This document shows, one piece after another, positions 139-3,291 of a stretch of DNA of 5,770 bases. Numbering within the stretch: position 1 is the first letter of the stretch; each line of letters starts with the position of its first letter. The DNA lies in NCBI GenBank assembly GCA_017626625.1, contig JAGAIK010000389.1:1-5770 (forward strand). The letters run 5' to 3'. The position numbers and the translations under genes were made by a program. The notes under the pieces are model-generated. The model did no database searches. It was not told where the DNA came from and saw nothing but the letters and a program-made list of their open reading frames with translations. The stretch comes from Roseburia sp. (lineage in GTDB: Bacteria; Bacillota; Clostridia; Lachnospirales; Lachnospiraceae).

Positions 139-942
139 ATGGGAAAATTATTTGATTTTGAACTGGTATTTACGTCCATACCGGAGCTTTTGCAAAAGCT
201 GCCGATTACGCTGGAGCTGGCGCTTTTGGCAATGGTACTCGGGCTTCTGCTGGGACTTTTGATGGCAGTGATCAAACAGAAAAAAATCCGGGTTCTGACA
301 CAGATTGTGAATTTTCTGATTTCCCTGATTCGGGGAACTCCGGTGATTGTACAGCTTTACATCGCTTTTTTCGGAATCCCCATGTTTTTTAAGTATCTGA
401 ACCAGCAGTTCGGAACCGATTTTGCCGTGGCGGAGATACCGGGCTTTGTGTATGCGGTGGTGGCGCTGGGGTTAAACCAGTCGGCATTCTGTGCAGAAAT
501 TATCCGTTCCGCCTTACAGTCTGTGGACGAGGGGCAGATTGAGGCGGCCCATGCCCTGGGAATGAGTTTTTTCCAGACCTTAAGGAGGGTAATCCTGCCG
601 GAGGCATTTGAGGTGGCGCTGCCGACCCTGGGAAATTCCCTGATTAGCATGATAAAGAGCACCTCCCTGGCATTTACCTGTGCGGTGGTGGAGATTACGG
701 CACAGGGGAAAATTATTGGCGGACGCTCTTACCGTTATTTTGAAGTGTACGTGTCGTTGGCAATTATTTACTGGGTGATTACCATTGTTATTGAACAGGG
801 CATCCGGCTTATCGAAAAGAAAATCAGGATTCCGGAGCAGGTGGAACTGGTAGTTGTGAGGACAGACAGCGGAGGCGGGGACAAAAGTGCAGGGGTGCTC
901 CGGCAGGCGAAAGCTGTAGCTGCCCGGAAGGAGGGAACATGA
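139..942 (+). CDS. Polar amino acid ABC transporter permease (HisM/GlnP family, cystine-type)
   Basis: This is the membrane subunit of an amino acid uptake ABC transporter, 267 residues long. Hydrophobic segments lie at about residues 22-45, 53-84, 100-118, 160-185 and 203-225, the pattern of the HisM/GlnQ-associated permeases. The family motif RGTP is at 65-68. The EAA loop that docks on the ATPase is at 135-154 (EAA, then G141, then ILP). The stretch around residues 190-212 (GGRSYRYFEVY, then YW) resembles cystine-type permeases such as TcyL/TcyM/TcyB; substrate is inferred from that resemblance only. An AGGAGG at 126-131 sits 7 bases before the ATG. The protein has a hydrophilic tail of about 33 residues after the last conserved part (from about 235) that is longer than usual and rich in G, K, R and A. 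It is followed directly by its ATPase gene. Such permeases work as dimers, either alone or with a second permease; no second permease is in view. Confidence 0.95.
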   Translation: MGKLFDFELVFTSIPELLQKLPITLELALLAMVLGLLLGLLMAVIKQKKIRVLTQIVNFLISLIRGTPVIVQLYIAFFGIPMFFKYLNQQFGTDFAVAEIPGFVYAVVALGLNQSAFCAEIIRSALQSVDEGQIEAAHALGMSFFQTLRRVILPEAFEVALPTLGNSLISMIKSTSLAFTCAVVEITAQGKIIGGRSYRYFEVYVSLAIIYWVITIVIEQGIRLIEKKIRIPEQVELVVVRTDSGGGDKSAGVLRQAKAVAARKEGT

Positions 943-943
943 G

Positions 944-1702
944 ATGGTAAAAATAGAGCATTTATCCAAAAAATACAATGACAATATTGTCTTAGAGGAC
1001 ATCAATCTTGAAATCCGCAAGGGAGATGTGGTGGGCATCATCGGTCCCTCCGGTACAGGAAAATCTACGCTGCTGCGCTGTGTCAACCGCCTGGAAACGC
1101 CGGAAAGCGGTGCGGTGTGGTTAGGGGAGAAAAAAATTGAAATCGCCCGCAAAAATGTGAAAGAACTGCGTTATCTGCGCCAGAATACGGGCATGGTATT
1201 CCAGAGGTTTCATTTATTTGAAAAGAAAACTGCGCTGGAAAATGTGATGGAAGGGCTTGTGGTGGTAAAGAAGCTGAAGAAAGAAGAGGCAAGGGAAATC
1301 GCCCAAAAGGAGTTAGAAAAGGTAGGCATGGCACCCTGGGCGAACCATTATCCGAAGCATTTATCCGGCGGACAGCAGCAGCGTGTGGCATTGGCGAGAG
1401 CTTTAGCCATGAAACCGGAGCTTCTGCTGCTCGACGAACCCACCTCCGCCCTTGACCCGGAACTGGTGGGAGAGGTGTTAGATGTGATAAAAAAGGTGGC
1501 GGAGGAGGGGTACACCATGCTGTTGGTTTCCCATGAGATGAACTTTGTCCGCCATGTGGCAAACCGGGTGATTTTTTTAGAGAAAGGGCATATCGTGGAG
1601 GACGGCACCCCGGCGGAGGTGTTTGAGCATCCGAAGAATGAACGGACCAGGGAGTTTTTCAGGAAAATGCACATGATGAATCAGCCGGAATATATTATTT
1701 AA
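944..1702 (+). CDS. Polar amino acid ABC transporter ATP-binding protein (HisP/GlnQ family)
   Basis: This is the cytoplasmic ATPase that powers the adjacent permease, 252 residues, a normal length for the family. All catalytic elements are intact: Walker A GPSGTGKST at 34-42, Q-loop Q87 (in FQRFHLF, where FQQFNLF is more usual), signature LSGGQQQR at 140-147, Walker B LLLLDEP at 160-166, D-loop SALD at 168-171, and switch histidine H197 in VSHEM. The order and sequence are those of class 3 (polar amino acid) importers. The ATG at 944 is one base past the permease stop, and AAGGAGGG at 928-935 lies 8 bases upstream, inside the permease gene, so the two are translationally close or coupled. An ATG at 939 runs into a stop after three codons and is not the start. 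No clear Rho-independent terminator follows the stop; the next structured DNA is the palindromic element 42 bases on. Confidence 0.97.
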   Translation: MVKIEHLSKKYNDNIVLEDINLEIRKGDVVGIIGPSGTGKSTLLRCVNRLETPESGAVWLGEKKIEIARKNVKELRYLRQNTGMVFQRFHLFEKKTALENVMEGLVVVKKLKKEEAREIAQKELEKVGMAPWANHYPKHLSGGQQQRVALARALAMKPELLLLDEPTSALDPELVGEVLDVIKKVAEEGYTMLLVSHEMNFVRHVANRVIFLEKGHIVEDGTPAEVFEHPKNERTREFFRKMHMMNQPEYII

Positions 1703-1843
1703 GAAGATTATGGGGAAAAAAGGGTGGTGGGATGGGTGGTGTGAGGCAGATTGCACAAAGCCGGCTCTGTTTTTGTTCCGATGTACAGAGATAAGATGTT
1801 CTAAGAAATCTGCTGCCGAAGGCTGTGGCGGAGGGACGTAAAC

Positions 1844-1877
1844 GGTACAAGGGCGCCTTCCATGGCGCCGTTGTACC
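1844..1877. repeat. Inner hairpin 1 of the palindromic element
   Basis: GGTACAA (1844-1850) pairs with TTGTACC (1871-1877). After one G/G mismatch, GGCGCC (1852-1857) pairs with GGCGCC (1864-1869), leaving the loop TTCCAT (1858-1863). That gives 13 base pairs in a 34-base hairpin, largely GC in the upper stem. There is no T-run after it, so it does not look like a terminator. Confidence 0.88.
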
Positions 1878-1878
1878 T

Positions 1879-1902
1879 CGCCCAGCCGTCCGTGGCTGGG
1901 CG
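1879..1902. repeat. Inner hairpin 2 of the palindromic element
   Basis: CGCCCAGCC (1879-1887) pairs perfectly with GGCTGGGCG (1894-1902) around the six-base loop GTCCGT. It follows hairpin 1 after a single base, so the two could stack side by side at a junction. Just outside, GTAAACG (1837-1843 region) can partly pair with CGTTAC (1901-1906), which would close the junction at the cost of the last two pairs of this hairpin. Confidence 0.88.
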
Positions 1903-2042
1903 TTACTGTGTATCGGGCAGATTTCTAAGAACATCTAATCTCTTCCCATAGTCACAAAAACAGAGCCGGCTTTGTGCAATCTGCCTATATCAGTTATCGA
2001 CAGTCCCCCTTTGTGCCCCCGATGTCGTCGTATTTGGTAGAA

Positions 2043-2135
2043 AGAGGTAAGGATTTAAAGAAAAGGCTAGAAAAGGAATGATGCAAGGGGACGATAGAGG
2101 TAAGGGTTTGAAGAAAAGGTTGTAAAATAAATGAT
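2043..2135. repeat. Two diverged 40-bp direct repeats, period 53 bp
   Basis: Copy 1 (2043-2082) and copy 2 (2096-2135) both start AGAGGTAAGG and end AATGAT, and agree at 33 of 40 positions with no gaps. They share the AAGAAAAGG core. A 13-base spacer (GCAAGGGGACGAT) separates them. The second copy ends 37 bases before the peptidase start codon. Possible readings are an old tandem duplication or a pair of regulator binding sites; the sequence does not decide between them. Confidence 0.75.
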
Positions 2136-2157
2136 ATGTGGATTGACCTTATAGAAA

Positions 2158-2164
2158 AAGGAGG
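2158..2164 (+). promoter_or_regulatory. Ribosome binding site fixing a GTG start
   Basis: AAGGAGG lies 8 bases before the GTG at 2173, the ideal distance. The next in-frame ATG is far inside the conserved N-terminal region (residue 29), so the GTG is the only start that keeps the whole peptidase fold. Confidence 0.85.
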
Positions 2165-2172
2165 AAGCGGCA

Positions 2173-3291
2173 GTGGGAGTGATACGGGTGGAGGACGTGA
2201 AACGGACGTTTGGAAATTTGGTGGGGATAGATTCGCCGTCTCTAAAGGAAAAGCAGATGGCGGAGTATATGAAAAGAATGTTTAGGCAGATTGGGATTGA
2301 GCTTTGGGAGGATGACAGCGGGAGGGTGACGAAGTCTAACGCTGGGAATTTGTATGGGTTTGTGAGAGGGAGCGGGGGAGAAGCTCCGGTGCTGTTGTCG
2401 GCTCATATGGATACGGTGATGCCTGGTTATGGGAAAAAGGCGGTTTTTGAGGAGGATGGGACGGTAAGGAGCGATGGAACGACGGTTCTGGGGGCGGATG
2501 ATTTGGCGGGGATTACGGCAATTTATCATGCAGTGAAGGCGGTCAGAGAGCGCGGGAGCGGTCACAGGGATTTTGAGCTTTTGTTTACTACGGGGGAGGA
2601 GCTTTACTGCAAGGGGGCGAAAGCTTTTGATTATGGAAAGTTGAAATCACGGAGGGCTTATGTGCTGGATTTGAGTGGAAGGATTGGGGAGGCGGCTTAT
2701 GCGGCGCCTACGATTCTTTCTTTTTCTGCGAAATTGACAGGCAGGGCGGCTCATGCGGGCTTTTGTCCGGAAAACGGGATTAATGCCCTGCGGGCGGCGG
2801 CGGAGGCGGTGACCCGGCTGCCTCAGGGGAGGATTGATGAAATTACCACGGCAAATATCGGCAGGATTTCCGGCGGGGAGGGGGTTAATATCGTAGCTTC
2901 TGCCTGTGTGGTGGAGGGGGAAATCCGCAGTTTGGAGCATAGAAAGGCGTTGGCGCTTTTGAAAAGGTACCGGGAAACTTTTGCCCGGACGGCAGGAGCC
3001 TTTGGGGCGGGGCTGGACTGGGAAGAAAATATAGATATTGAAGCATATGAAACGAGCCTGGAGAGCGATACGGTGTTGGAATACCGGAAAGCAGCGGAAA
3101 TGGCGGGGATAAAAGCGGGGTTTTCGAAAACCTTTGGAGGGAGTGACAACAATGTGTTTGCGCAGCACGGAATCGAGGGGCTTGTGGTGGCGCCTTCTAT
3201 GAACGAGGTGCACAGTTGCGGGGAATACGGAAATATTTTTGAGATGACTTCTGTGGCGGAGATTTTGGTGCATTTGCTGGAACAGGTGTAG
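2173..3291 (+). CDS. M20 family metallopeptidase, peptidase T-like
   Basis: This is a 372-residue cytoplasmic zinc exopeptidase of the M20 family, closest in pattern to the PepT-like group that trims small peptides. The expected two-metal site is complete: H78 and D80 in SAHMDT, bridging D109 in GADDLAG, general base E142 and metal ligand E143 in TTGEE, D166 in YVLD, and H347 in EVHSCGEYGN. The lid/dimerisation domain sits at about residues 180-290 and carries H194 in RAAHAG, as in other M20 enzymes. Substrate cannot be fixed from sequence; acyl-amino acid hydrolysis is a less likely alternative because the motifs around D166 and H347 favour the PepT-like branch. The gene is strikingly G-rich on its coding strand, with many GGG glycine and AGG arginine codons, unlike the flanking genes. 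It is separated from the transporter by the repeat region, so co-transcription is doubtful. No clear terminator follows it. Confidence 0.93.
   Translation: MGVIRVEDVKRTFGNLVGIDSPSLKEKQMAEYMKRMFRQIGIELWEDDSGRVTKSNAGNLYGFVRGSGGEAPVLLSAHMDTVMPGYGKKAVFEEDGTVRSDGTTVLGADDLAGITAIYHAVKAVRERGSGHRDFELLFTTGEELYCKGAKAFDYGKLKSRRAYVLDLSGRIGEAAYAAPTILSFSAKLTGRAAHAGFCPENGINALRAAAEAVTRLPQGRIDEITTANIGRISGGEGVNIVASACVVEGEIRSLEHRKALALLKRYRETFARTAGAFGAGLDWEENIDIEAYETSLESDTVLEYRKAAEMAGIKAGFSKTFGGSDNNVFAQHGIEGLVVAPSMNEVHSCGEYGNIFEMTSVAEILVHLLEQV

Follow-up and report, generated by a model that had tools for sequence, protein, structure and literature searches.

A near-palindromic intergenic element of Roseburia sp. 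as a likely non-autonomous mobile element carrying a TwoAYGGAY RNA with two predicted CsrA-binding hairpins

Results

The window, i.e., the whole stretch of 5,770 bp that was analysed, corresponds to the entire contig C203 of its own genome (G000), the assembly of which is 81% complete. Genes for an ABC transporter ATPase (PF00005; positions 944–1702, plus strand) and an M20 peptidase (positions 2173–3291, plus strand) are separated in it by 470 bp, and this interval contains a palindrome of 243 nt (positions 1744–1986). An inverted-repeat search delimited a left arm (positions 1744–1813) and a right arm (positions 1917–1986) of 70 nt each, neither assigned to a strand, that are 89% complementary over these 70 nt and enclose a spacer of 103 nt. 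As RNA, the 243-nt strand folds with −157.1 kcal/mol, compared with a mean of −75.25 kcal/mol (standard deviation 4.68) for shuffled versions (z-score of −17.5), and 0 out of 200 shuffles were as stable. The near-palindromic arms of ca. 70 bp with their exact outer 33 bp, as pointed out in the initial annotation, thus exist and clearly exceed chance expectation: in the computed fold, no break interrupts the outer 33 pairs, and the centre indeed holds the two further strong hairpins that had been described. The mechanical ORFs overlapping the palindrome are 79, 59, and 43 aa long.

Both the homology between copies of this sequence and the pairing of their arms run on outward past the 243 bp, with a median self-complementary length of 296.5 bp among the 102 copies with enough flank, and the 243 bp initially taken for the full element are therefore too short. 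The outer arms common to several genera read GATTCGGGTGTCAAAAG...CTTTTGACACCCGAATC, and the palindrome forms the interior of a longer element, inferred from the GATTCGGGTGTCAAAAG consensus of the better preserved copies to span approximately positions 1706–2026 (no strand assigned), one end of which would lie 3 bp from the ATPase stop codon. In the window copy, both element ends are decayed and no target duplication is visible. Most isolated mismatches (109 cells) correspond to a U-U mismatch that is conserved in the long stem; in the window arms its site is TTCTTAGAA, within positions 1790–1813 and 1917–1940 (minus strand), which also occurs in other copies.

Among 19 loci with an M20 homologue, none of which matched the Rfam model RF01731 that covers the core of the element (see below), the adjacency of ATPase and M20 peptidase was kept in only four (L021, L022, L024, and L027); in five others ca. 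2 kb lie between the genes, and the remaining ten have no adjoining ATPase. In L021, L022, and L024, i.e., Lachnospiraceae assemblies in which the ATPase is 84–85% identical to that of the window, merely 14 bp separate the ATPase stop codon from the first aligned M20 codon (ca. 20 bp in L027), as opposed to the 470 bp in the window. Since the AGGAG of these relatives directly follows the stop codon, the extra DNA of the window sits between the stop codon and the ribosome-binding site. This extra DNA consists of the element and of ca. 146 bp (positions 2027–2172) beyond its inferred end. The latter segment, which is absent between the two genes in the three relatives, contains an imperfect 43-nt direct repeat (positions 2040–2082 and 2093–2135, 81%) and has no match in the other loci examined.

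Searching with the 243-bp sequence, as the initial annotation had proposed, revealed 17 places with differing flanks in the own genome, distributed over 16 contigs and in several cases cut at contig ends, so that the element is not single-copy; model RF01731 found 14 copies in the same genome. No copy out of 107 was located inside an ORF of at least 80 aa (ORFs mostly within the element set aside). Across the family (one genome per genus), RF01731 was carried by 21 of 150 genomes, with 1–50 copies each when up to 81 candidates were scored in a renewed search of these carriers, the highest numbers being found in G143 (50), G042 (47), and G037 (40). In a larger family sample, 65 of 397 genomes were carriers at an E-value of at most 0.001 (63 above the Rfam cut-off), and in a sample of the class this was the case for 28 of 291 (20 above the cut-off). 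Outside the own family were 24 of these 28 class carriers (16 of the 20 above the cut-off), with best scores of ca. 37–63 bits. The TwoAYGGAY core also occurs in further families of Clostridia, where its ends are different. All carrier counts are lower bounds, with at most 17, 6, and 9 candidates scored per genome in the 150-, 397-, and 291-genome samples, respectively, so that some carriers may be missed.

Viral contigs yielded no match to either of two end patterns, and phage records no match. Among plasmids, a single record from Agathobacter rectalis matched, at two places. One of the two, on this 252-kb plasmid (unnamed1 of strain DFI.5.28; L322, positions 1929–2098), is a full RF01731 match of 159.2 bits; its outer arms, long and complementary, have a different sequence, one of its neighbours is a GGDEF-domain gene, and its host is a cultured species. 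TwoAYGGAY copies were also often paired, at distances of a few hundred bp and with diverging RNA strands, in G086 (C1, C5, and C15) and G008 (C47 and C33), and likewise in G037 (C123) and G143 (C92 and C125). In L184 and L185 (both G066), the self-complementary arms extend for at least 250 bp per side at 83–84%, so that either the palindrome is larger there or the assembly accounts for the extension.

The exact 33-bp arms had been proposed as the sites kept by a transposase. This is not supported: the arm sequence varies between copies while staying complementary (in L007 and L096, the arms outside the core are even of another sequence altogether), and conservation of the ends is found farther outward. 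In relatives, the true ends are GATTCGGGTGTCAAAAG and its inverse instead of the outer 33 bp of the palindrome. These ends were found with at most two mismatches in 8 of 10 carrier genomes (the other two being without match), and in G176 they occurred 78 times, versus once for a reversed control. From loci 1–20, 52–102, and 141–291, 39 distinct end-bounded copies were retained (at most 4 mismatches per end and 7 of 25 between the arms, a length of 60–420 bp, and 30 bp of flank). An exact 7-bp direct repeat abutted the ends in 12 of these 39, whereas exact direct repeats of 5 and 6 bp were each found once, those of 8, 9, and 10 bp never, and exact inverted 7-mers three times. The mean agreement between flanks over 7 positions was 0.67, compared with 0.43 for re-paired flanks, a value reached in none of 2000 trials; a weaker excess was seen over 5 positions (3 of 2000 trials) and over 10 positions (none of 2000). 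Ten of the exact duplications stem from G176, which supplies 26 of the 39 copies, whereas G042 and G122 contributed a single one each, and A-rich runs account for two of the 12. Neither the window copy nor the single own-genome copy among the 39 shows a duplication.

Out of 20 end-pair loci in G176, seven (310–314 bp) contain RF01731 and 13 (73–203 bp) do not. Alignment showed at least 10 of these 13 RNA-free forms to be central deletions of the long form, while one (121 bp) has an unrelated centre. An identical 159-bp RNA-free form resides at four sites, two of which have exact 7-bp duplications, and an identical 106-bp form at three, of which one has such a duplication; the flanks differ between sites. 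Because such RNA-free derivatives have spread too, movement does not require the RNA core.

The autonomous, transposase-bearing relative with matching ends that was to be sought was not found with PF01609, at isolated ends, or in the collected loci. Neither the 30 matches to DDE_Tnp_1 (PF01609) from 11 genomes (nine of them with matches) nor 20 G176 loci with isolated ends, i.e., ends lacking a close partner, yielded a gene flanked by the ends at up to 3 mismatches, and a few end pairs at 5 of 17 mismatches (e.g., in L301) were taken as chance. The 321 loci contained no transposase with element ends. Two end pairs in these 321 loci were more than 420 bp apart, i.e., that of L095 (1810 bp, enclosing ORFs of 230 and 198 aa) and that of L156 (744 bp, around a TwoAYGGAY copy).

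The interpretation as a non-autonomous mobile element nevertheless holds, on other grounds and with other ends than first proposed: 17 places with different flanks, an empty site, and, in relatives, conserved ends with 7-bp target duplications. It is the empty site, the scattered copies, and these duplications that make us regard as most improbable an immobile structured RNA gene or two-way transcription terminator, in spite of the very stable hairpin between genes and of the family's entry as a probable RNA in the 2010 list (PMC2864571, as far as its passage on the family goes); a T-run terminator, moreover, was not found at positions 1650–2250.

The core of the element (positions 1780–1950, minus strand) matches the full Rfam model of the TwoAYGGAY RNA (RF01731, model positions 1–168) with 132.8 bits (gathering score 43), and this was the sole match in the window at Rfam's own cut-off. 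The family is of Rfam type Cis-reg and belongs to clan CL00106, as does CsrB (RF00018), as seen on scanning the csrB locus of E. coli K-12. The first RNA hairpin (positions 1879–1902, minus strand) has a 9-bp stem and the loop ACGGAC (positions 1888–1893), and the second (positions 1844–1877, minus strand) has a stem of 6 + 7 bp and the loop ATGGAA (positions 1858–1863). Both loops are of the CsrA-type form ANGGAN, from which a role in CsrA binding can be predicted, and ACGGAC fits AYGGAY, while ATGGAA is without the final pyrimidine. The alternative offered by the initial annotation, i.e., a folded RNA, was consequently right as to content. It is compatible with the mobile-element reading, neither excluding the other: the RNA is cargo.

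In the passages that deal with the family, Weinberg et al. (2010) consider TwoAYGGAY a probable RNA that is probably not cis-regulatory (PMC2864571), and Gardner and Eldai (2014) propose CsrA binding from motif matches, terming validation work in progress (PMC4333381). Rfam 15 mentions it among the families with covariation-improved structure (PMC11701678), a 2025 preprint notes two differing hairpin stabilities (PMC11661157), and its name or accession also appears in PMC7657543 and PMC7682815. In the passages on the family in openly accessible main texts, no description of it as mobile was found.

A strand-neutral search of 105 distinct cores (from 107 copies) found 120 hexaloop hairpins in 78 copies, of which 117 have GGA, 116 ANGGAN, and none TCC, although these counts are biased as the copies were detected with a model that contains the loops. 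In the core loops, ANGGA is kept on one strand only, as in CsrA sites. The published CsrA consensus, as quoted in PMC4347634, is RUACARGGAUGU with the GGA in a hairpin loop, and its C-[ARGGAU]-G follows the same plan as the core loops.

A simple consensus scan of positions 1650–2250 revealed neither a sigma-70-like promoter on the RNA strand nor a terminator, and the RNA strand of the window copy is antisense to both neighbours. Relative to the RNA, the upstream and downstream genes of the 107 copies were oriented +/+ in 30, −/− in 27, +/− in 23, and −/+ in 13 cases (one neighbour was missing in 14), so that copy orientation relative to genes is near random. The 30 copies with both neighbours in sense, together with the Rfam type, would suit a mobile cis-regulatory module, in which sense copies in untranslated regions place the neighbouring gene under CsrA and no free sponge RNA exists. 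We deem this quite improbable, given that 27 copies, as well as that of the window, are antisense to both neighbours, and that the family was judged probably not cis-regulatory in the relevant passage of the 2010 study (PMC2864571).

CsrA was found in 62 of the 65 family carriers (all 21 of the first sample plus 41 of another 44), versus 61 of 129 family non-carriers of the first sample (p-value of 2e-12 against carriers). The family carriers in which it was not found are G168 and G319, with one copy each, and G358, with at least six copies in a 91% complete assembly, whose congener G042 does have CsrA. Outside the family, CsrA was present in 20 of 24 carriers (13 of the 16 above the Rfam cut-off) compared with 66 of 257 non-carriers (p-value of 3e-8), the four carriers without it all belonging to one family and having assemblies that are 80–95% complete. 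As a control, flagellin was present in 22 of these 24 carriers, and among flagellated genomes the element was found in 20 of 86 with CsrA versus 2 of 15 without (p-value of 0.51). Since flagellin predicts the element as well, co-occurrence cannot separate CsrA from motility, and it was rejected as proof of a CsrA link, with CsrA adding nothing within flagellated genomes.

The only CsrA found in the own genome is a divergent protein of 98 aa, encoded beside flagellin and a tyrosine recombinase. Aligned to 2jpp (a carbon storage regulator homologue), it retains the MLxL of the N-terminus as well as arginine 44, which we take to be RNA-binding positions. A cassette in which a tyrosine recombinase gene (ca. 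190–200 aa) is divergently oriented to a long, divergent csrA, with a flagellin gene following, recurs in L083 (G000, contig C300, positions 355–3080), L084, L085, L089, L091, L092, and L094, as read from the ORFs. Pfam confirms the recombinase and CsrA in both L083 and L084, and the flagellin in L083 as well; the others were read by eye. Such a cassette may constitute a switchable flagellin locus.

Finally, the covariation check suggested for the RNA showed many paired changes: with 19 genomes represented by one copy each, 32 out of the 35 consensus pairs had at least one instance in which both sides had changed and the pairing persisted. Wobble pairs would be expected to favour the transcribed strand. 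They were rare, however, and G-U to A-C ratios of 45:26 (p-value of 0.03), 3:3, and 14:11 in three counts identify neither strand clearly as the RNA. Paired changes with hardly any wobble intermediates are as compatible with arm-to-arm correction of a palindrome at the DNA level as with selection on an RNA. The branched fold might then be a DNA palindrome only, kept complementary by palindrome-driven repair in a plain MITE whose RNA has no role, as is in line with the spread of RNA-free derivatives, the near-random orientation of copies, and the window copy having no visible promoter. To this account, unlikely in our view if deserving serious weight, are opposed the ANGGAN loops on one strand only (116 of 120), the recurrence of this core, with different ends, in further families of Clostridia, and the strong link with CsrA-bearing, flagellated genomes.

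Discussion

Taken together, we favour, at a probability of roughly 60%, the reading that the palindrome is the body of a non-coding, likely MITE-type element that carries a TwoAYGGAY RNA with two predicted CsrA-binding hairpins. The element, situated between genes that adjoin in relatives, would spread as a non-autonomous transposon, with a transposase acting in trans that would recognise the GATTCGGGTGTCAAAAG ends and create the 7-bp target duplication. The RNA core would be dispensable for the transposition step itself, because RNA-free derivatives have spread. If the minus (GGA) strand is transcribed, each of the two ANGGA loops would offer a predicted CsrA site, and the many copies per genome might together act as a dispersed CsrA sponge. 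More tentatively, and as a possibility about which we remain doubtful, TwoAYGGAY could be a transposable CsrA decoy of Clostridia, i.e., a mobile counterpart of the CsrB sponge of which dozens of copies per genome titrate or rewire the CsrA regulon.

An RNA candidate of 2010, for which the passages devoted to it contain a motif-based functional proposal only, thus emerges as cargo of what is likely a transposable element. Such mobility would account for the scattered, multi-copy distribution of TwoAYGGAY, and the CsrA proposal thereby becomes testable in cultured bacteria. Should the copies bind CsrA, transposition would be a route for spreading the sites of a global regulator through a genome. 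A word of caution is that paired changes in families of this kind may stem partly from DNA palindrome dynamics, beyond selection on the RNA alone.

The element resembles bacterial MITEs in being short and non-coding, with terminal inverted repeats, many intergenic copies, and, in relatives, target duplications. It differs from them in being almost wholly self-complementary and in carrying a structured RNA that is found in several families of Clostridia, and no parent transposase was found for it (PF01609 in 11 genomes, 20 isolated ends, and 321 loci). With sponge RNAs of the CsrB/RsmZ type (clan CL00106) it shares the GGA-loop hairpins and the Rfam clan, and most of its hosts have CsrA. Those sponges, however, are one RNA gene with many sites, whereas two predicted sites per copy and many dispersed copies are seen here; the own promoter and terminator by which CsrA-sequestering sRNAs are recognised were, moreover, not found in the window copy. 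Of the TwoAYGGAY RNA itself, the core fold and both hairpins are present in a full-model match of 132.8 bits, even if the second loop of the window copy (ATGGAA) does not strictly conform to the name AYGGAY. In the passages of the literature on this family, TwoAYGGAY is described only as a candidate RNA, while in the present case an element of ca. 320 bp, with terminal repeats and, in relatives, target duplications, carries it as cargo.
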